Source: Marmoricola sp. (lineage in GTDB: Bacteria > Actinomycetota > Actinomycetes > Propionibacteriales > Nocardioidaceae). Taken from it: a stretch of 64,000 nt of DNA. How positions within the stretch are numbered: the stretch's first letter is position 1; each line of letters starts with the position of its first letter. Shown one piece after another: positions 51,633 to 60,640 of the stretch. The translations under genes were made by a program, and so were the position numbers. A model generated the notes under the pieces. That model did no database searches and was not told where the DNA came from. It saw only the letters and a program-made list of their open reading frames with translations. The stretch lies in contig JAOPYC010000182.1 in NCBI GenBank assembly GCA_025964795.1, forward strand, positions 1 to 64,000, in the 5' to 3' direction.

Positions 51633-52298
51633 GTGCTGACCGTCGGCGTCTGCGAGGACGACCCCGCGATCCGGCGGGTGCTGCAGCGTTCCCTGGAGTA
51701 CGCCGAGCACCGAGCGGTGGTCGCGCACACCGGTGCAGAGGCACTCCGGATCTTTCCCGCGGCAACGCTGGACGTGATCGTGATGGACATCGGTCTGCCC
51801 GACGCCGACGGTCGTGACGTGGTCCATGCACTCAAGACCGCCGGCCAGTTCGCACCGGTGCTGTTCCTGACCGCGCTCGGCGCCGTGCACGACCGGCTGT
51901 CGGGCTTCGCCGCGGGGGCGGAGGACTACGTCGCCAAGCCCTTCGACGTGAAGGAGGTCCTTGCCCGGATCGACGTGCTCGGGCGCCGCGGCCTCCAGCC
52001 CCGCTCCGCCGGCCTGAACCTCGGGTTCGAGCTCAACCCGATGACCCATGCGCTGGAGACCCCGACCGAGTCGGTGTCGTTGACCCCGACCGAGTTCAGG
52101 GTCCTCGCCGCGATCGCGCAGCGCCCCGGCGAGGTCGTCCGCCGACGTGCGGTCATCGCCGCCGGCTGGCCCGACGGGGCGTACGTCGCTCCCAACACCG
52201 TGGACTCCTTCCTGAGTCGGTTACGGAGCAAGCTGGAGACCGTCGGGGCCCCGGTGGTCATCGAGACCGTGCGCGGTGTCGGCTTCAGGATGAGGTGA
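51633..52298 (+). CDS. OmpR-type response regulator (system 1)
   Basis: A 221-residue response regulator. Receiver: acidic pair in GVCEDDPAIRR, phospho-aspartate in VIVMDIGLPD, threonine in LFLTALG and lysine in YVAKPFD. Output: winged helix at about 125-221 (LTPTEFRVLAAIAQRPGEVVRR and NTVDSFLSRLRSKL). It closely resembles the regulator at 63468-64000, so the two are paralogues. It is 4 bp ahead of its histidine kinase gene. Five CAGGT-type promoters in the following 10.5 kb are likely targets. The GTG at 51633 gives a leader of about 18 nt without a strong Shine-Dalgarno. Confidence 0.93.
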   Translation: MLTVGVCEDDPAIRRVLQRSLEYAEHRAVVAHTGAEALRIFPAATLDVIVMDIGLPDADGRDVVHALKTAGQFAPVLFLTALGAVHDRLSGFAAGAEDYVAKPFDVKEVLARIDVLGRRGLQPRSAGLNLGFELNPMTHALETPTESVSLTPTEFRVLAAIAQRPGEVVRRRAVIAAGWPDGAYVAPNTVDSFLSRLRSKLETVGAPVVIETVRGVGFRMR

Positions 52299-52302
52299 TC
52301 GC

Positions 52303-53655
52303 ATGTGGCGCCCGCTCCCCCGTAGCGTCCGCGAGGTGCTCAATGGCCGTGGGTCGCTGCGGACCCAGCTGATCGCACTGACGTGCCTCTCCAGCACGAT
52401 CGCGGTGGTGGTGCTGGGCGTGCTGGTGCAGCTCCTGCTCGGCCGGGCGACGGATACCGCAGTGTCCAAGGTGATGACCGATCGCGCCGCGTCTGTGGTG
52501 GCCTCGGCCCAGGCCAACTCGAAGGGAACCAGGATCTCGGTCCCGCAGTCTCGGCTCGAGGCGGGCGTCGCCGTCTACGGCGCCGACGGGTCGATCCGCG
52601 CCGGCGCGGCCCCGGATGCCCTGGCCGACCAGTACGACCGGGTGCGGGTGACGACGCGTGCCAAGACCCTGCGCGTGGGCGACTACGCCCGCGTGTACGC
52701 CCTGCCCTTCATGACCAAGGCAGGGCAACAAGGCACCGTCGTGGTCAGCGAGCAGCGCGCGCCGTACGCCACCGCGGCCACCTACGCGCTGGCGGTGACG
52801 ATCGGGGCCGGCATCCTGCTCGTCTCGGCCGCCACCGGGCTGGTCGCGTTCGCCAGCAGACGCGCGCTCCGCCCCGTGAGCGCCATGGCCGCCACCGCGG
52901 AGGAGTGGAGCGAGCACGACCTCGGACGGCGATTCGCCCTCGGTGAGCCCGGGAACGAGATCACCTCACTGGGACGCACCCTCGACGGGCTCCTCGACAA
53001 GGTCGCCCAGACCATCCGCTCCGAGCAGCGGCTCACCTCCGAGCTCGCCCACGAGCTGCGCACCCCGCTCGCGGCGATCCAGGGCAACATCGACCTGCTG
53101 CGGCTGCGTAACGACCTCGACCGCGGGATGCGCGACGACCTGGACGAGGTACATGCCGCCTGCCTGCGGATGTCACAGACCATCTCGGGCCTGATCGACC
53201 TCGCCCGCGCCACCTCCTCCGTGGCCCACGGCACGAGTCATTCGGTGTCGCTGGTCGTGGACGACGCCCTTCGGGACGCGACGGCGACAGCAGAGGCACG
53301 CGACATCGCCGTAGGGCGGGACATCGCCCCGGACCTCACCTGGGAGGTGCCGCACGACCTTGCCGTACGAGCCCTCACCCCGCTGGTGACCAACGCCGCC
53401 CGGATGGCTCGGACGCAGATGCGCCTCACTGCGGGCCGGCGACCCGACGGCTCGATCGGCCTCACGGTCGAGGACGACGGACCCGGCGTCGAGGAGTCCC
53501 GGCGCGACCTCATCTTCAGTCCCGGTGAGACCAGTGGCGGAGGAGCCGGTCTCGGCCTCGCCCTGTCCCGGCGCATCGCGCGGGTCAGCGGTGGCGACGT
53601 GACTCTCGATCCCTCACCGGGCCCCACCCGCTTCCTGCTGCACCTGCCCGGCTGA
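52303..53655 (+). CDS. Sensor histidine kinase (system 1)
   Basis: A 450-residue membrane kinase. Two membrane segments (about 24-46 and 160-185) enclose an extracellular sensor of about 110 residues, followed by a HAMP-like linker, the H-box SELAHELRTPLAAIQG (phosphorylated His), N-box TPLVTNAARM and G-boxes VEDDGPGV and GGAGLGLALS. AGGTGA lies before the ATG. It probably phosphorylates the regulator encoded just upstream. The sensor domain has no recognised fold, so the signal is unknown; a membrane- or cell-wall-derived cue is my inference from the target genes. Confidence 0.93.
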   Translation: MWRPLPRSVREVLNGRGSLRTQLIALTCLSSTIAVVVLGVLVQLLLGRATDTAVSKVMTDRAASVVASAQANSKGTRISVPQSRLEAGVAVYGADGSIRAGAAPDALADQYDRVRVTTRAKTLRVGDYARVYALPFMTKAGQQGTVVVSEQRAPYATAATYALAVTIGAGILLVSAATGLVAFASRRALRPVSAMAATAEEWSEHDLGRRFALGEPGNEITSLGRTLDGLLDKVAQTIRSEQRLTSELAHELRTPLAAIQGNIDLLRLRNDLDRGMRDDLDEVHAACLRMSQTISGLIDLARATSSVAHGTSHSVSLVVDDALRDATATAEARDIAVGRDIAPDLTWEVPHDLAVRALTPLVTNAARMARTQMRLTAGRRPDGSIGLTVEDDGPGVEESRRDLIFSPGETSGGGAGLGLALSRRIARVSGGDVTLDPSPGPTRFLLHLPG

Positions 53656-53756: not shown

Positions 53757-54722
53757 ATGACCATCCACGCGCAAGCCTCTGAGCGCCGGCACACCGCACC
53801 CGGCGGACCAGACGGCCAGTCACCCATCGTCGTCCGGGGCCTCACCAAGCAGTACGGCGAGCTGACGGCCGTCGACGACCTCACCTTCACGGTGACCCCG
53901 GGACGGGTGACCGGCTTCCTGGGACCCAACGGAGCAGGGAAGACCACCACCCTGCGCATGCTGCTGGGCCTCGTGGCTCCCACGAGCGGGACGGCGACGA
54001 TCGGTGACCGGTTGTACGCCGATCTGCCAGAGCCCACGCGCGTGGTGGGCGCGGTGCTGGAGGCGTCATCGGCCCACCGGGGACGCACCGGCAGGAACCA
54101 CCTCCGCGCCGCGTGCATCGCGACCGGGCTAGAGATCTCCCGAGCCGACGCGACCCTCGAGATGGTCGGGCTGATGGCCGCCGCCGACCGTCCTTTCAAG
54201 GGCTACTCACTGGGAATGCGGCAACGGCTCGGGATCGCCAGCGCGATGCTGGGCGACCCCGACGTACTCATCCTGGACGAGCCGGCGAACGGCCTGGACC
54301 CCGAGGGGATCCGCTGGATGCGCACGCTCCTGCAGGGACTCGCCTCCGAGGGGCGCACCGTCCTGGTCTCCAGCCACCTGCTCTCGGAGATGCAGGCGCT
54401 CGCGGACGAGGTCGTCATCGTCGCCGCCGGGCGCCTGGCCCGGCAGGGCTCGATCGACGACATCATCGCGCCACTCTCCATCGGCGCCCCCGTCCAGGTC
54501 AGCACACCGCAGCCCGAGCGTCTCGCCGCAGCACTGCGGTCCGCAGGAGCCACCGTGACGATCCCTAACGGGACCGCCCTGAGGGTCCTCGGCATCGAGG
54601 AGTCCCTGATCGGTGACCTGGCGTTCTCGGTCGGCGTTCCGGTCCACCGTCTCTACACCGAGACCCCCGATCTCGAGGACGCATTCCTGACCCTCACCCA
54701 CGCAGAGGCGGCCATCCGATGA
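53757..54722 (+). CDS. ABC transporter ATP-binding protein
   Basis: A 321-residue ATPase. Walker A is GPNGAGKT, the signature is YSLGMRQRLGIASAM, Walker B LILDEPANGLDPEG and the switch histidine is in SSHLLSEM. The C-terminal 90 residues resemble the regulatory tail of drug/bacitracin-type (BcrA-like) ATPases. AAGGA is 6 bases before the ATG; an in-frame ATG at 53715 falls in the promoter. The permease gene overlaps it by 4 bp. It lies under a CAGGT-type promoter directly behind the two-component genes, the usual arrangement for antimicrobial-peptide exporters. Confidence 0.92.
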   Translation: MTIHAQASERRHTAPGGPDGQSPIVVRGLTKQYGELTAVDDLTFTVTPGRVTGFLGPNGAGKTTTLRMLLGLVAPTSGTATIGDRLYADLPEPTRVVGAVLEASSAHRGRTGRNHLRAACIATGLEISRADATLEMVGLMAAADRPFKGYSLGMRQRLGIASAMLGDPDVLILDEPANGLDPEGIRWMRTLLQGLASEGRTVLVSSHLLSEMQALADEVVIVAAGRLARQGSIDDIIAPLSIGAPVQVSTPQPERLAAALRSAGATVTIPNGTALRVLGIEESLIGDLAFSVGVPVHRLYTETPDLEDAFLTLTHAEAAIR

Positions 54723-55600
54723 AGCGACTCGTGCACGCCGAGCTGTTCAAGCTCAGGACCACCAACGCCTGGTGGCTGTTCGCGCTGGCCATCCTCGCCA
54801 GCACCGTGACGATGCTGGTCGTCAACGGGATCAACGCGTACTCCCTGCTCCAGCCGTTCAACTCCTTCGTGAACCTGCACAGCCACGGTCACGCCGGCAG
54901 CATCCCGGCGGACTTCCTCGCGCACCTGCGACAGGAATGGACGGCTGGGCACGACGGCATCGGGCAGGCGGCCATGCTGTACACCTCCGGCCAGCTCATC
55001 GGCGTCCTGCTGGTCTGCCTGCTCGGGATCGTCATGGTGACCAGTGAGTTCTACCAACAGACCGCGACGTTCACGTTCCTGCAGACGCCCAGGCGGAGCG
55101 CAGTCATCCGCGGCAAGCTCGTCGCCGCGCTCCTGGTGGCCGGACTGGCGTGGTTGGTCTCCACGGTCATCAGCGTCGCCGCCGGTGCCGCGTTCCTGCA
55201 CTCCCAGGGCTACTCGACCGGGCTGGGTCACTGGGCGGTGGACCGGGCCATCCTGCTCAACCTCGCGGCGTACCTGCTGTGGACGCTGTTCGGCATCGGC
55301 TTCGGCTGTCTGGTCCGCCACCAGCTCGCGGCCACCGTCAGCGCCACCGTGCTCTACCTCATCGGAGCTACCGCGGCCGCCACGGTCTTCGAGCTCCTCA
55401 ACACCTACGTGCTCAACCAGAACTGGGTGTTGGCCGCCCAGGTCGTGGTACCGCCGGTGGCCTCGACCGTGATGGTCTCGGCCACCCAGGCGTTCGAGCA
55501 GAGTCCCCCGGCCTGGGTCGGCGCCGTCGTCCTGCTCGTGTGGAGCCTGGTCGCGATCCGCCTCGGCGACCGGCGCCTCCAGCGCCACGACATCACCTGA
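54719..55600 (+). CDS. ABC transporter permease (BcrB/ABC-2 type)
   Basis: A 293-residue membrane protein with six predicted segments and a large extracytoplasmic loop between the first two (about 42-92). It resembles ABC-2 permeases (KRLVHAELFKLRTTNAWWLF at the start; SEFYQQTATFTFLQTPRR for the coupling helix). With the ATPase it makes a complete exporter of the type used against peptide antibiotics. The start overlaps the ATPase stop (ATGA). No substrate can be named. It is followed 114 bp later by the first DUF347 protein. Confidence 0.9.
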   Translation: MKRLVHAELFKLRTTNAWWLFALAILASTVTMLVVNGINAYSLLQPFNSFVNLHSHGHAGSIPADFLAHLRQEWTAGHDGIGQAAMLYTSGQLIGVLLVCLLGIVMVTSEFYQQTATFTFLQTPRRSAVIRGKLVAALLVAGLAWLVSTVISVAAGAAFLHSQGYSTGLGHWAVDRAILLNLAAYLLWTLFGIGFGCLVRHQLAATVSATVLYLIGATAAATVFELLNTYVLNQNWVLAAQVVVPPVASTVMVSATQAFEQSPPAWVGAVVLLVWSLVAIRLGDRRLQRHDIT

Positions 55601-55714: not shown

Positions 55715-56575
55715 GTGAGCACCGACGTCTGTCCCGACACTCGTCCCGGGACCAGAGCCAGCGACCATCTTCCTGGAGGCTGGTTGGTCAAGGTCCCGGC
55801 GGTGGGCGCACTCTTCTGGGTCGTCAAGATCCTGACCACGGGGATGGGCGAGGCGGCCTCGGACTTCCTGGCCCGGGTCAGCCTCGGGCTGCCCGTGCTG
55901 GTGGGCGGGCTCGGCCTGGTGGTCACCCTGACGCTGCAGCTGCGCTCCGACCGCTATCGCGCGGTGACCTACTGGAGCGCGGTCGCCGCCCTGGCCGTCT
56001 TCGGCACGGTCGCGGCAGACGGGCTGCACTCCGTCCTAGGCCTCTCACTGCCACTGATGACGGCGCTGTACGCCGCGCTGCTGGCCGGTGTGTTCTGCTT
56101 CTGGTTCCGCAGTGAGCGGACACTGTCGATCCACAGCATCACCAACCGGCGCTCCGAGACCTTCTACTGGATCACGGTGTTCCTGACCTTCGCACTCGGC
56201 ACGGCGGCCGGGGACCTCACCGCCAGCACGCTGGCCCTCGGGTTCCTGGGCTCGGCATACCTCTTCGGCCTCGCGATGCTCGTCCCGCTCGTGCTCTACC
56301 GCACCCGGCTCGTCGGCGAGATCGCAGCGTTCTGGTCGGCGTACGTCCTCACCCGGCCCATGGGCGCATCGATCGCGGACTGGATGGGCAAGCGCTCCGG
56401 CCTCGGACTGGGCGACGGCACCGTGACCGTGGCTGCCCTCGGGCTGATCGTCCTCGCTGTCGCCTACCTCGCCGTGACGCGCGCCGACGCCCACCGCGAC
56501 CAGCTGCTGCCGAGCCGGCCACTGGACCAGCGGCCGGAGACGCAGCCCGTCGAGGTCCGGGTGTCAGCCCGATGA
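55715..56575 (+). CDS. DUF347-repeat (COG4705) membrane protein, copy 1
   Basis: A 286-residue protein with four DUF347-like repeats, each a pair of membrane segments with a buried Gly and Asp: TTGMGEAASDFL, FGTVAADGLH, LGTAAGDLTA and RPMGASIADWMG. No enzymatic or transport function has been proven; the conserved acidic residues suggest cation binding. GGAG stands 6 bases before the GTG. It begins a tightly overlapping run of four genes ending with the ferric-reductase-like protein. A second copy is at 61230-62075. Confidence 0.88.
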   Translation: MSTDVCPDTRPGTRASDHLPGGWLVKVPAVGALFWVVKILTTGMGEAASDFLARVSLGLPVLVGGLGLVVTLTLQLRSDRYRAVTYWSAVAALAVFGTVAADGLHSVLGLSLPLMTALYAALLAGVFCFWFRSERTLSIHSITNRRSETFYWITVFLTFALGTAAGDLTASTLALGFLGSAYLFGLAMLVPLVLYRTRLVGEIAAFWSAYVLTRPMGASIADWMGKRSGLGLGDGTVTVAALGLIVLAVAYLAVTRADAHRDQLLPSRPLDQRPETQPVEVRVSAR

Positions 56576-56940
56576 GCAGCGTGCCTCCTGGCGGCACACC
56601 ACCGCCGGACGAGGACCCCGCTCGGCGGACCACGTCACCGTGGAGCGTCGAGCACTACGGCTTCGACGACCACACCACGCAGCCCGCCCCACCGGAACGC
56701 ACACGGTCCACCGCGCCCGTCCCGGAGCGCCGCCGCTCCACCCGCCTGCGTGTCATGCTCGCGTCGGCCGCTCTCGCGCTCGGGCTGACGGCCGGCGGCA
56801 CAGGCTTCGCTGTCGCCCAGGCCTCCACCGGAGACGGCAGGGGCCCCGACCGAACCGTCGCGGCGCAGCTGACGGCCGACCGTGGCCCTGACGCTCATGA
56901 CGGTCGGGGTGGTCCCGACGGGCCCGGGGGTGGACGGTGA
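56572..56940 (+). CDS. Single-pass membrane protein of unknown function
   Basis: A 122-residue protein: a proline-rich cytoplasmic N-terminus (about 1-58), one membrane segment (about 60-82, RVMLASAALALGLTAGGTGFAVA) and an extracytoplasmic tail rich in Gly, Asp and His (DAHDGRGGPDGPGGG). The family is not known to me. The start overlaps the DUF347 gene by 4 bp (ATGA) and its end overlaps the next small gene (GTGA). Its position in the chain suggests a structural or metal-binding accessory to the flavocytochrome encoded downstream. Confidence 0.7.
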   Translation: MSSVPPGGTPPPDEDPARRTTSPWSVEHYGFDDHTTQPAPPERTRSTAPVPERRRSTRLRVMLASAALALGLTAGGTGFAVAQASTGDGRGPDRTVAAQLTADRGPDAHDGRGGPDGPGGGR

Positions 56941-57089
56941 CGCACCAGCGTGACCGGATCGGGATCTGGATCGCCGGCCTCGCGACGGCCGTCGGTCTGT
57001 GGATGGGTCTGGTCGCACCCTCGGTGTCGCCCGTGACCCCGCAACCCCCGAGCACCACGGTGACAGTGGTCCCGGGACAAGCGCCGTGA
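56937..57089 (+). CDS. 50-residue membrane miniprotein
   Basis: GTG at 56937 overlaps the preceding stop (GTGA) and the frame runs 50 codons to TGA at 57087-57089, which again overlaps the GTG of the next gene by 4 bp. The product has a short charged start (VTHQRDRIGIW), one membrane segment (about 8-28) and a Pro/Thr/Val-rich tail (VSPVTPQPPSTTVTVVPG). Both overlaps at its ends argue that it is translated. Function unknown; perhaps a small subunit of the ferric-reductase-like protein. Confidence 0.65.
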   Translation: MTHQRDRIGIWIAGLATAVGLWMGLVAPSVSPVTPQPPSTTVTVVPGQAP

Positions 57090-58420
57090 CCGAGTCGCCC
57101 AGCGAGAGTCTCGACCACCAGGCCCTCAGCTCGTACGTCGTCAACGCGGGCTGGTTCGGCGCCCTGTTCGTCGCCGTGTGGCCCGTCGTGCTCGCGTTGG
57201 CCACACCCGCGCCGTTGCTGCTCGTGCCCGTGATCGCGCACGTGAGCGGAATGCTGGCCGGCTACGGCGTCCTGGTCCTGATGACGCTGATGTCGCGGTG
57301 GCCCCTGCTCGAGCGTGGCGTCGGCGGCGACCGGCTCGCCCGCTGGCACGCGATGACCGGACGCGCTGTGGTCACCCTCGTCGTCGTCCACGCCTGCGCG
57401 GCCGTCACAGGCTGGGCGCAGGCGCGGGGAGAGAGCATCCCGCTCGCCCTCTGGGACGTCCTGGGCATGCCGTGGCTGATCTCGGCCACCCTGGGCACCA
57501 TCGCGATGCTGGCGGTCGCGGCCATCTCGATCCGGGCCGCCCGGAAACGGCTGCGCTACGAGACCTGGCACGCCATCCACCTCTGGACCTACGTCGCGAT
57601 CGCGCTCTCGTTCGTCCACCAGCTCGCCGGCCCCGACCTGACCGGCCATCGATGGCTCCAGGTCGCCTGGGCGCTCCTGTACGCGCACACCTTCGGGCTC
57701 GTGCTGAGATATCGGATCCTCGCGCCCGTCCGTCAGGCCGCCCGCCACCGGCTCCGGGTCTCCGCGGTCGTCCCCGAGGCGCCCGGTGTCGTCTCCATCG
57801 TGATCACCGGCCACCGGGTCGAGGAGCTGCACGCCGAGCCGGGCCAGTTCTTCCGCTGGCGGTTCCTCACCCCCGACACGTGGCTGACCGCGCACCCGTT
57901 CTCGCTCAGCGAGCCCCCGCGCGCCGATCGGCTACGGCTCACCGTGAAGGACCTCGGCGACGGCAGCGGGCTGCTGCAGCACATCGAGGTCGGCACCTGG
58001 GTGGTCGCCGAGGGACCGTACGGCGCGATGACCGCCGCTCGTCGTACTCGCCGCAACGTGCTGCTCGTGGCCGGCGGCGTCGGCATCACCCCCATGCGCG
58101 CCCTGTTCGAGACCATCCCGGCTGTCGGAGGCGACGACCAGGACCTGCTGCTGCTCTACCGCGCCCGCACCCGGGAGGACATCGTGTTCCGCGCCGAGCT
58201 GGACGAGATCGCCGCACGACGGCGCGCCCGCGTCGTCTACCTGCTCGGCAACAACCGGGACCACCTGAGCACGGCCTCGCTCACCCGGCTCGTCCCGGAC
58301 CTCGTGAGCCGTGACGTCTACCTGTGTGGACCGCCTGGCATGGCGGCCGCCGTGCGCGCCTCGGTCCTCAAGGCCGGCCTTCCGGCCGGGCACCTGCACG
58401 AGGAACGGTTCGCCTTCTGA
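57086..58420 (+). CDS. Ferric-reductase-like flavocytochrome
   Basis: A 444-residue protein. The N-terminal half has about six membrane segments with histidine pairs suited to haem (RWHAMTGRAVVTLVVVHA and WHAIHLWTYVAIALSFVHQ). The C-terminal half is a ferredoxin-NADP reductase-like domain: FAD motif HPFSLSEPP, NAD-binding GGVGITPMRAL and VYLCGPPGMAAAV. It should carry electrons from NAD(P)H across the membrane to a metal or oxygen. Start GTG 57086 overlaps the miniprotein stop. Together with DUF347 and the two small membrane proteins it forms one operon. Confidence 0.9.
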   Translation: MTESPSESLDHQALSSYVVNAGWFGALFVAVWPVVLALATPAPLLLVPVIAHVSGMLAGYGVLVLMTLMSRWPLLERGVGGDRLARWHAMTGRAVVTLVVVHACAAVTGWAQARGESIPLALWDVLGMPWLISATLGTIAMLAVAAISIRAARKRLRYETWHAIHLWTYVAIALSFVHQLAGPDLTGHRWLQVAWALLYAHTFGLVLRYRILAPVRQAARHRLRVSAVVPEAPGVVSIVITGHRVEELHAEPGQFFRWRFLTPDTWLTAHPFSLSEPPRADRLRLTVKDLGDGSGLLQHIEVGTWVVAEGPYGAMTAARRTRRNVLLVAGGVGITPMRALFETIPAVGGDDQDLLLLYRARTREDIVFRAELDEIAARRRARVVYLLGNNRDHLSTASLTRLVPDLVSRDVYLCGPPGMAAAVRASVLKAGLPAGHLHEERFAF

Positions 58421-58517: not shown

Positions 58518-59534
58518 ATGGAGACGGGGACCGGACCTCGCCCGACCCTTGCGGTCGGGCGGCCGAGTCGCATGCGCTCGTGGAGCGCGTGGGCCTGGAA
58601 GTCGCTCCTCGTCGTAGGGCTCGTCGGTGGAGGGCTGTGGACCGCGACCCACGGCGTGGCCGGTGCCACCTGGCACGACGTGCTCGCCGTGGTGCGAGCC
58701 CTGCAGTTCCGTCAGCTCGCCGAGCTCAGTGGCATCTGGCTGGGCGGCCTCGCCGTCTACGCCACGGTCCTGTCGGCTGCGCTTCCCGGACTCGGCGTAC
58801 GACGCAGCCTGCTGCTCAACCTCAGTGGCAGCGCGGTCGCGAACCTGATCCCGTTCGGCGGCGCCGTCGCGACCGGACTGAACTGGCGCATGGTCCGCAC
58901 CTGGGGGCACTCCAACCTGGCGTTCGCCACGTTCTGCGTCCTGACCAACGCCCTCGACGTGGCGTTCAAGCTGGTGCTGCCGGTCGTGGCAGTCACTGGT
59001 CTCGCCCTCGCGGCGGGACACGTTCCCGCGACGCTGTGGGTGACCGCCTCCATCTGTGCAGCAGCGTTGGTGGCCGTGCTGCCTGCACAGGCCCTCGTGC
59101 TCCGGACCCATCGCTGGAACACCGTGCTCGGCCCTCTGCGCCAGACGATCGACCGCATCCATCGGCTCCTGCTCCAACGCTGGGGTCGGTTGCTGCCGGC
59201 CAGCCTGGTCTACGTCGCGACCCAGGTGGCGCTCCTGGAGTTCAGCCTCCGCGCGGTCGGCCTGCACGCGCCGGTGACGGTCGTGCTGATGGCGGCCGCG
59301 ATCGAACGTCTCAGCAGCCTGGTGCCCTTCACCCCCGGCGGTGCCGGGTTCGCGGAGATCGGGACGATCGCCTGGCTGGTGGCCAACGGCCTCGACCCGG
59401 TCGAGGTGGTGGCCGGCGTCCTCGTCTACCGGTTCTTCCTGATCGCGATGGAGGTCCCGGTCGGCGGCGTGCTGCTCGGCGTCTGGGCCTGGTTCCAGCG
59501 TTCACCACGGCCGGCGATCGGACCGGTCGGATGA
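58518..59534 (+). CDS. YbhN/UPF0104-like membrane protein (lysylphosphatidylglycerol synthase TM family)
   Basis: A 338-residue protein with about seven to eight membrane segments. Typical motifs: RSLLLNLSGSAVANLIPFGGAVATGLNWRM and ERLSSLVPFTPGGAGFAEIG. The family covers the flippase half of MprF and polysaccharide or lipid transport proteins. The annotated start is ATG 58518, but GAGGAG (58491-58496) fits instead an in-frame ATC at 58503, six bases after it; ATG at 58572 is also possible. The gene overlaps the glycosyltransferase by 4 bp, so the two probably make and move one glycolipid. Confidence 0.85.
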   Translation: METGTGPRPTLAVGRPSRMRSWSAWAWKSLLVVGLVGGGLWTATHGVAGATWHDVLAVVRALQFRQLAELSGIWLGGLAVYATVLSAALPGLGVRRSLLLNLSGSAVANLIPFGGAVATGLNWRMVRTWGHSNLAFATFCVLTNALDVAFKLVLPVVAVTGLALAAGHVPATLWVTASICAAALVAVLPAQALVLRTHRWNTVLGPLRQTIDRIHRLLLQRWGRLLPASLVYVATQVALLEFSLRAVGLHAPVTVVLMAAAIERLSSLVPFTPGGAGFAEIGTIAWLVANGLDPVEVVAGVLVYRFFLIAMEVPVGGVLLGVWAWFQRSPRPAIGPVG

Positions 59535-60640
59535 GGATCCTGCACCTCACCGACCACTACCTGCCCGTCCTGGGCGGCATCGAGACCCATGTCCACGGGT
59601 TGGCTGAACGTCAGCGCGCACGGGGGGACGACGTCACCGTGCTGACCTCGACCCCAGCCGGCAACGAGGAGACCTCGCGCGCGCTGCCGGTCATCCGCGC
59701 CCGCTCCTTCCTGGAGGCGGCCAGGTTCGACTTCGGGGCCTGCGACGTGGTGCACGCGCACGTCTCGGTGGTCGCGCCGTTCACAGCCCCCCTGGCGGCC
59801 ATCGCCGCCCGCAGCGGCGTACCGACGGTGGTCACGGTCCACTCGATGTGGAACCGGATGGGGCCGCTCCCCGGCCTGGCCGCCGCCGTCGCCGGACTGC
59901 GCAGCGCACCCGTCTCGTGGACGGCGGTCAGCCAGGTGGCCGCCTCCCAGCTCGCCCACCAGCTCCCGGACCGGGTGCAGGTCACGGTGCTGCCGAACGC
60001 TGTGGACACCCTGCCGAGGATCGACACGCCCCGGCCGCGGCCCGACCACCTGGTCAGGCTCATCAGCACGATGCGACTGGCCCCGCGCAAGCGTCCGGTC
60101 CAGCTGGCTCGCATGTTCAGGGACCTGCTCGACCAGGTCGATGTCCCGCTCCACCTCACGATCGTCGGCGACGGCCCCCAGCGCCACCGCGTCCAACGCA
60201 CGCTCGCCCGACTCCACCTGGAGTCCGCCGTGACCCTGACCGGTCGGGTCGATCCGCGTGAGGTCGGCGAGCGACTCCGGGCGTCGGATCTCTACGTGGC
60301 CCCGTCGATGCTGGAGTCCTTCGGGCTCGCGGCGCTGGAGGCCAGGTGCGCGGGACTGCCCGTGGTGGGACATGCCGTGAGCGGCCTGACGGACTTCATC
60401 CGCACCGAGGTCGAGGGAATCCTGTGCCACTCGGACGCTGACATGGTGTCAGCACTGCGTCGACTCGTCGAGGACGAACCGCTGCGCCGGAGGATGTCTG
60501 AGCACAACCGGACCGTCGGCACCCAGATGACCTGGGCCACCAGCCTCGCCCGGCACGACCGGGTCTACACCGAGGCGGGAAGGCGGGGGGTCTCGTCCTC
60601 GTCGGCGCTCCCGGTGGCCTCCGAGGACGGGCGGCCCTGA
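59531..60640 (+). CDS. GT4-family glycosyltransferase
   Basis: A 369-residue GT-B glycosyltransferase. The N-terminal acceptor domain starts MRILHLTDHYLPVLGGIETH, and the C-terminal domain has the nucleotide-sugar motif SMLESFGLAALEARCAGLPVV (the E-x7-E pattern of GT4). It has no signal or membrane segment, so it acts at the inner face, likely on a lipid acceptor handled by the YbhN-like protein. Donor and acceptor are unknown. Its end overlaps the DedA gene on the other strand by 76 bp (60565-60640). Confidence 0.9.
   Translation: MRILHLTDHYLPVLGGIETHVHGLAERQRARGDDVTVLTSTPAGNEETSRALPVIRARSFLEAARFDFGACDVVHAHVSVVAPFTAPLAAIAARSGVPTVVTVHSMWNRMGPLPGLAAAVAGLRSAPVSWTAVSQVAASQLAHQLPDRVQVTVLPNAVDTLPRIDTPRPRPDHLVRLISTMRLAPRKRPVQLARMFRDLLDQVDVPLHLTIVGDGPQRHRVQRTLARLHLESAVTLTGRVDPREVGERLRASDLYVAPSMLESFGLAALEARCAGLPVVGHAVSGLTDFIRTEVEGILCHSDADMVSALRRLVEDEPLRRRMSEHNRTVGTQMTWATSLARHDRVYTEAGRRGVSSSSALPVASEDGRP

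Follow-up and report, generated by a model that had tools for sequence, protein, structure and literature searches.

Single-helix miniproteins encoded beside NOX-fold flavocytochromes of Actinobacteria: a candidate exchange of redox partners

Gene organization of the Marmoricola locus

A 64,000-nucleotide stretch of DNA from Marmoricola sp. (GenBank assembly GCA_025964795.1, contig JAOPYC010000182.1, positions 1 to 64,000; hereafter the window) carries four plus-strand genes joined end to end, the last of which encodes a membrane flavocytochrome predicted to adopt the fold of the NADPH oxidases (NOX). The subject of this report is that enzyme and the small membrane proteins encoded in front of it, one of which, a 50-residue miniprotein, is its conserved genetic partner in the clade to which the enzyme belongs. 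The first gene (55715 to 56575) begins with a GTG codon just downstream of a GGAG stretch and encodes a 286-residue membrane protein of the DUF347 family (PF03988), and the second (56572 to 56940) encodes a 122-residue, single-helix membrane protein with a proline-rich inner part and a Gly/Asp-rich outer tail, similar to proteins found near other flavocytochromes. The third (56937 to 57089) specifies the single-helix miniprotein, with the core A-x3-G-x3-G-x3-P-x3-P, and the fourth (57086 to 58420) the six-helix flavocytochrome, with haem sites H88/H102 and H165/H178 followed by flavin adenine dinucleotide (FAD) and NAD(P)H domains.

The four frames are linked, exactly as an initial annotation of this DNA had claimed, by three 4-bp overlaps (ATGA at 56572 to 56575, GTGA at 56937 to 56940 and GTGA at 57086 to 57089), from which synthesis in fixed ratio and assembly into one complex had been proposed. 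Such overlaps are ordinary both on this contig, where 15 of 62 pairs of same-strand neighbours share exactly 4 bp, and in two sets of relatives (88 of 398 and 152 of 844 pairs), so that by themselves they make no argument for a complex of fixed stoichiometry.

The miniprotein as a conserved gene

Neither small product matches a Pfam or NCBIfam model above its cut-off, and nine proteins of the small families from relatives are likewise without such a match. Both frames were also missed by a codon-usage gene finder built for this analysis, which bears out the earlier expectation that the 50-residue gene would be overlooked by most gene callers, and their codon log-odds are weak (−0.2, or about zero, for the 122-residue frame and +7.5, weakly positive, for the 50-residue frame; two long antisense frames score −21 and −31). 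Weak scores and a silent gene finder are what chance open frames in G+C-rich DNA would produce. However, the reality of the small frames rests on conservation rather than on codon usage, and the recurrence of the 50-residue frame at one syntenic place, together with its codon-position signal, has already refuted a chance origin in its case and makes such an origin of the small frames extremely improbable overall.

This recurrence emerged from a scan of GTDB genomes with the flavocytochrome, which returned 228 relatives, the best 80 of which were kept; in the closest of them a small single-helix frame lies directly upstream of the enzyme gene. A profile seeded with 11 core sequences and run on 28,646 frames from 109 sources (the window and loci L071 to L098 and L115 to L194) matches 13 loci at E ≤7.2e-9, the best down to 5e-18, all directly upstream of a flavocytochrome, with the next match at E 0.024. 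In the full set of 138 flavocytochrome rows, 131 of them different, the miniprotein lies upstream of 14 (the window, L115 to L125, L127 and L220), including three matched by the profile though outside its seed (L118, L121 and L220), and of 0 of the 124 others, among which L135 lacks upstream sequence and L244 has just 321 bp of it. The 14 enzymes form a single clade, here termed clade A (Shimodaira–Hasegawa-like approximate likelihood ratio test, SH-aLRT, 99), whose named loci derive from Geodermatophilaceae bacterium (two), Actinoplanes (two), Kineococcus, Blastococcus, Psychromicrobium, Curtobacterium (two), Microbacterium and Propionibacteriaceae (two). The miniprotein is in this sense tied specifically to the flavocytochrome, being present in 14 of 14 clade-A loci.

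An alignment of 12 miniproteins shows A16, G24, P28 and P32 to be invariant and G20 nearly so, and the predicted helix, the only hydrophobic segment of the protein, is a small-residue (glycine) zipper, continued on the outer side by prolines. Between the members of the two closest pairs, differences at codon positions 1, 2 and 3 number 11, 8 and 31 of 69 each (L124/L127; nonsynonymous divergence, dN, 0.17, synonymous divergence, dS, 0.70) and 14, 17 and 39 of 78 each (L115/L118; dN 0.23, dS 1.13), the third-position excess reaching p 1.9e-6 and 4.4e-6, with all gaps multiples of three and a dN/dS of about 0.2. By these signatures, the 50-residue frame is a translated gene under purifying selection. 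Its stop overlaps the in-frame start of the flavocytochrome by 4 bp in 6 of 11 named loci (L115, L116, L117, L118, L119 and L123), and the junction is out of frame in L125 and L127.

A direct search of 394 genomes with the miniprotein profile, an insensitive one because only 12 candidates per genome were scored, gave matches in 25 at E 0.01, and among those loci only the window's and that of genome G225, whose family counts 1 of 35, hold this flavocytochrome. Of the same 394 genomes, 89 have a flavocytochrome match at E 1e-85; because only the best 30 places of these genomes became loci, clade A may be undercounted.

Fold and haem sites of the flavocytochrome

Pfam identifies Ferric_reduct, NAD_binding_1 and FAD_binding_8 domains in the flavocytochrome, which as a PF01794 protein resembles the enzyme component of MsrQ-like systems. 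An AlphaFold2 model built from 45 sequences (12 of the 14 of clade A, 13 of the 27 of a Streptomyces clade described below, and 20 from enzymes accompanied by a protein that binds flavin mononucleotide, FMN) has a predicted local distance difference test score (pLDDT) of 91.1 and six long membrane helices. It superposes on SpNOX with a Z score of 34.1 and a root-mean-square deviation (rmsd) of 2.8 over 391 residues at about 20% identity (Foldseek was also run), and on NOX2 (8wej) with Z 22.9 and rmsd 3.3 over 420 residues; the modelled enzyme has the NOX fold, with the six-helix membrane domain and FAD/NAD(P)H domain expected of the FRD/NOX superfamily. The haem histidines H88, H102, H165 and H178, in helices 3 and 5 as in that superfamily, are invariant in 45 of 45 aligned sequences. 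In SpNOX of Streptococcus pneumoniae (8qt6, 8qq7), the reported counterparts are H69/H83 and H129/H142 (PMC11564096), and the two enzymes are alike in fold, in their six helices, in bis-His spacings of 14 and 13 and in the FAD/NADPH domain, the low identity notwithstanding. Domains, haem ligands and predicted fold together bear out the earlier view that the locus encodes a membrane redox system.

Flavin partners and a second miniprotein

In Actinobacteria, an FMN-binding protein and ApbE together with such an enzyme constitute the MsrQ-like flavinylation system reported by Meheust et al. 2021 (PMC8238504). Apart from the 14 rows with the miniprotein, the 138 rows include 93 that lack a miniprotein but have an FMN-binding gene no more than 2.5 kb away, and 31 with neither. 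Twenty-seven of these 31, assigned to Streptomycetaceae where named, form clade C, the sister of clade A (SH-aLRT 98); the other four branch within the FMN-binding group. Of these four, three, including an identical pair, sit where a contig ends, and L189 is the one true exception. Most relatives are accompanied by an FMN-binding protein and ApbE; clade A and its Streptomyces sister clade are without them. In the window, no FMN-binding or ApbE match lies within 7 kb of the flavocytochrome, and a complete FMN-binding/ApbE set is found elsewhere in the same genome (C67).

Clade C has a single-helix miniprotein of its own, which starts no more than 350 bp downstream of the flavocytochrome match. 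By profile it is present in 27 of 27 loci, 12 of them outside the seed, and in 0 of 14 clade-A and 0 of 97 other loci; its core ends in V-x-P-A-A-P-P-A-P-D-R or a variant, and a count of this motif alone finds 24 of 27 (in L162 the gene is cut by the contig end, and L224 and L155 are identical there). Clade-C loci with the downstream miniprotein, among them L128, L131 to L133 and L140, are mostly from Streptomyces, and in L133 a gene for a TauE/SafE exporter comes after the miniprotein (helix plus PAAPPAPDR). In G+C-rich genomes, single-helix miniproteins readily escape notice, and actinobacterial MsrQ-like enzymes have been described in print through their flavinylated partners; in the available text of the open-licence PubMed Central (PMC) literature, no description of either miniprotein was found.

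A changed outer face

The enzymes without flavin partners also differ in their own sequence. At ten positions (33, 36, 39, 41, 51, 52, 106, 121, 183 and 267) the 25 sequences of clades A and C have no residue in common with the 20 of the FMN-binding type, and nine of the ten lie in the outer half of the membrane domain as defined for this analysis (hypergeometric p 3e-5). At position 52, 97 of 97 FMN-binding-group rows have Arg; His stands there in 27 of 27 Streptomyces-clade rows and in 12 of the 13 clade-A rows that could be read (L124 has Gln and L121 is masked; the window, L117, L125, L128, L144 and L164 were read by eye). Position 106 is Ala in 25 of 25 clade A and C sequences and Ile or Thr in 20 of 20 others.

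By their spacing, positions 52 and 106 would correspond to R54 and H119 of NOX2; the membrane half gave no sequence match to a NOX-family PDB chain. In NOX2, R54 and H119 line the oxygen-reducing centre (PMC9711523), and control of electron flow to oxygen has been attributed to R54 (PMC13296129). Superoxide-producing NOX enzymes are reported to have a His four positions beyond the outer haem ligand in helix 3 (His-119 of NOX2; PMC3591440); residue 106, its equivalent by spacing, is a residue other than His in 45 of 45 aligned sequences. With nine of ten separating positions on the outer side, two of them at the spacing-equivalents of R54 and H119, the outer face of clades A and C differs just where the flavin partner is missing. 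Compared with MsrQ-like flavinylation systems as described in the available text (PMC8238504), the window's unit is without FMN-binding protein and ApbE, has a miniprotein instead, and carries changed outer-face residues.

The 122-residue protein

Proteins of the 122-residue type were initially grouped by where they lie and how they are built (a single helix, an inner part rich in Pro and an outer part rich in Gly and Asp) and then by a profile of eight sequences, the window's included. This profile marks nine loci (the window, L119, L116, L121, L086, L087, L088, L091 and L095), of which only L121 (E 9e-7) was outside the seed; a match in L083 is marginal (E 0.004). L119, from Blastococcus, is the sole other locus with the window's three-gene order of 122-type protein, miniprotein and flavocytochrome; in L116 and L121 the gene is downstream of the flavocytochrome (at 3.9 kb in L121), and in L086, L087, L088, L091 and L095 it lies directly upstream of flavocytochromes of the FMN-binding type. 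Recurrence near such enzymes in eight other loci supports the proposed association of this protein with flavocytochromes. The family is nevertheless less certain than the miniprotein because of its low-complexity make-up, and the case against a chance frame is correspondingly weaker here: the profile matches include its own seed, and the L086/L087 pair, with differences at codon positions of 19, 23 and 42 of about 110 each, shows a third-position excess but has three of eight gaps that are not multiples of three in an unconstrained alignment.

The Gly/Asp/His tail had been suggested to hold metal outside the cell. This is a weak proposal, since the tail has one His in the window (it is His-rich in L116) and its Gly/Arg end probably doubles as the ribosome-binding stretch of the next gene; a metal site in the window's tail was set aside on the grounds of that single His.

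The DUF347 gene as a neighbour

The window's DUF347 protein is an unambiguous family member, with four repeats (E 1.4e-44; 150.5 bits against a curated cut-off of 28.2). The four genes might constitute one obligate metal-handling complex with DUF347 as a core subunit, as the overlapping operon would suggest and as three further observations would allow. First, 31 relatives carry DUF347 and 21 of them also give a strong match to the flavocytochrome, and the two genes lie within 15 kb in 4 of these 21 genomes where 0.25 would be expected, and within 35 kb in 7 where 0.58 would be expected (the expectation assumes uniform placement, and the window's genome was left out). Second, a Cnuibacter plasmid gathers DUF347, VIT, CDF, P-type ATPase, ApbE and ferric-reductase-like genes in about 13 kb. 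Third, a role in metal export has been proposed for DUF347 in Frankia, with links to lead and other metals (PMC4531530), and repeated in two later papers (PMC11534348, PMC9756366).

However, DUF347 is adjacent in 0 of 13 other clade-A loci (four of which have less than 4 kb of flank on one side), the miniprotein and flavocytochrome occur without it, its neighbours are mixed in the 17 loci compared, and we consider such a complex decidedly improbable. When the same four-gene order was sought in other genomes, DUF347 was found to join the operon only in the window, and it was the three-gene order without DUF347 that recurred in L119; in L117 and L125 a DUF347 gene lies 9 to 10 kb from the flavocytochrome. 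Fixed membership in a four-gene system also sits poorly with the presence of five DUF347 genes or pieces on the window's contig, and DUF347 as a core subunit was rejected for its non-adjacency in the 13 loci. Being near more often than expected yet not adjacent in other clade-A loci, DUF347 and the flavocytochrome have a regional link rather than a fixed operon, perhaps through envelope or metal stress islands, and in the window DUF347 looks like an incidental, lineage-specific neighbour outside the conserved unit. The earlier placing of DUF347 in a transmembrane redox or metal system therefore stands for the redox system but not for the membership of DUF347, and its metal component was already in print (PMC4531530). 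The Frankia proteins resemble the window's in that DUF347 accompanies membrane phosphatase genes and stress; unlike the window, the available text on them mentions no flavocytochrome (PMC4531530).

Three contexts, from the 255 records with a match, illustrate the variety of DUF347 surroundings: the Cnuibacter plasmid, where regulators and VTT also accompany it; Acidithiobacillus, where DUF347 stands with DedA; and Variovorax pHB44, where it stands with undecaprenyl-diphosphatase, PepSY and a sensor-regulator pair. There, on an IncP plasmid (L250, NZ_KU356988.1, 20976 to 26080), PepSY, undecaprenyl-diphosphatase, membrane proteins (one of them DUF347) and a two-component pair form a compact block between mobile elements, and two places in this record match DUF347. 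No relatives were found in the viral collection searched and no solved relative at E 1, and a middling DUF347 model (pLDDT 68.8, four sequences) gave no PDB fold match at E 0.001.

Beside the unit, on the minus strand at 60565 to 64163, a response regulator, a sensor kinase, a second DUF347 and a DedA (VTT) gene stand in a row, with 4-bp overlaps between regulator and kinase and between DUF347 and DedA and a gap of 49 bp between kinase and DUF347. Beyond the window, the contig carries three further DUF347 genes or pieces (70025 to 70783, 78890 to 79084 and 82182 to 82982; L009, L010), the piece near 79 kb overlapping the end of a sensor kinase gene.

A proposed mechanism and its rivals

We regard the following as probable, with moderate confidence in the explanation as a whole. 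The segment 56572 to 58420 would be a translationally coupled unit of 122-residue protein, miniprotein and flavocytochrome, in which the enzyme draws electrons from NAD(P)H in the cytosol and passes them via FAD and two b-haems to the outer side of the membrane, an activity suggested by the domains, haem ligands and predicted fold. Clade-A enzymes, having no flavinylated FMN-binding acceptor or ApbE and a changed outer face, would hand electrons directly to a small outside acceptor such as oxygen, a metal ion or a quinone. The miniprotein, with its one helix, glycine zipper and proline-rich outer tail, would pack against the enzyme as a small stabilizing or exit-shaping subunit, and is most likely the subunit that took over from the flavin partner; the 122-residue protein would be an accessory of the same enzyme. 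DUF347 would have come to sit in front in this lineage only incidentally, in a region where DUF347, sensor kinase, DedA and PAP2 genes are plentiful.

A different role for the miniprotein would be as the leftover anchor of a lost FMN-binding protein, or as a leader that couples or tunes flavocytochrome synthesis with no part as a protein in a complex. In profile comparisons the clade-A miniprotein shows weak similarity to the FMN-binding protein's anchor (probability 66; 54 to the Streptomyces miniprotein), and the end of its gene overlaps the start of the flavocytochrome gene or lies just before it. However, the invariant residues, the near-invariant G20 and purifying selection point to function as a protein, there is no overlap in L124 and L127, and the miniprotein is encoded upstream whereas the FMN-binding gene of relatives is mostly downstream; both versions thus appear unlikely.

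Several points also weigh against a miniprotein subunit that replaced the flavin partner, the indecisive profile scores among them. The clade-A sample is small (14), and the binding of the miniprotein to the enzyme is something that we infer. The separating positions may partly reflect simple inheritance, being changes of one clade and not independent of descent, and their outer-face excess falls to p 0.002 within the membrane domain alone. SpNOX is reported to work without a small subunit (PMC5676040), the 122-type protein is present in only 4 of 14 clade-A loci, and in clade A itself FMN-binding genes do occur near three of the enzymes, within 2.5 kb in L115 and L118 and at about 4 kb in L116; as we read the loci, those in L115 and L118 belong to a neighbouring module.

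Despite these points, a miniprotein subunit is the reading that we prefer, and a bolder extension of it, to which we give somewhat less than an even chance, would be that this actinobacterial branch of the NOX fold exchanged the outer partner that carries flavin for obligate miniproteins of a single helix, in two kinds or more, with one kind encoded upstream of the enzyme and another downstream. The resulting two-subunit flavocytochromes would mirror NOX2-p22phox by convergence, with the electron exit rebuilt at the NOX2 R54/H119 sites and a direct small-molecule acceptor. The phagocyte oxidase is likewise a same-fold enzyme with a dedicated membrane partner (PMC9711523, PMC13296129), the partnership being putative in our case; p22phox has four helices and the miniprotein a single hydrophobic segment and no Pfam match, which places it outside the p22phox family, and the two enzymes have different residues where spacing places R54 and H119. 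Two sister clades without flavin partners, each with its own miniprotein, would amount to a natural partner swap in which one enzyme core has two kinds of outer side, making testable what sets the acceptor that a NOX-fold enzyme uses and whether small NOX subunits arose in bacteria in their own right.

Wider neighbourhood

Upstream of DUF347 on the same strand lie an ATP-binding cassette (ABC) ATPase and ABC-2 permease pair joined by an ATGA overlap (53757 to 55600) and, before it, a response regulator and sensor kinase (51633 to 53655) that may regulate the cluster. Among 80 named loci, homologues of the ABC pair, at 59 to 73% identity, stand only beside the clade-A flavocytochromes L118 and L121; a threshold of 35% identity over 60% of the length brings up none in the remaining 68 named loci. 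The older unit may therefore have joined the ABC pair directly to the small proteins and the flavocytochrome, DUF347 having been inserted later. Farther along the contig, at 83071 to 84779 (L010), another ABC ATPase/ABC-2 pair resembling the window's comes directly after another DUF347 gene. After the flavocytochrome, on the same strand (58572 to 60640), follow an LPG-synthase-type flippase gene and a gene that by its letters encodes a glycosyltransferase.

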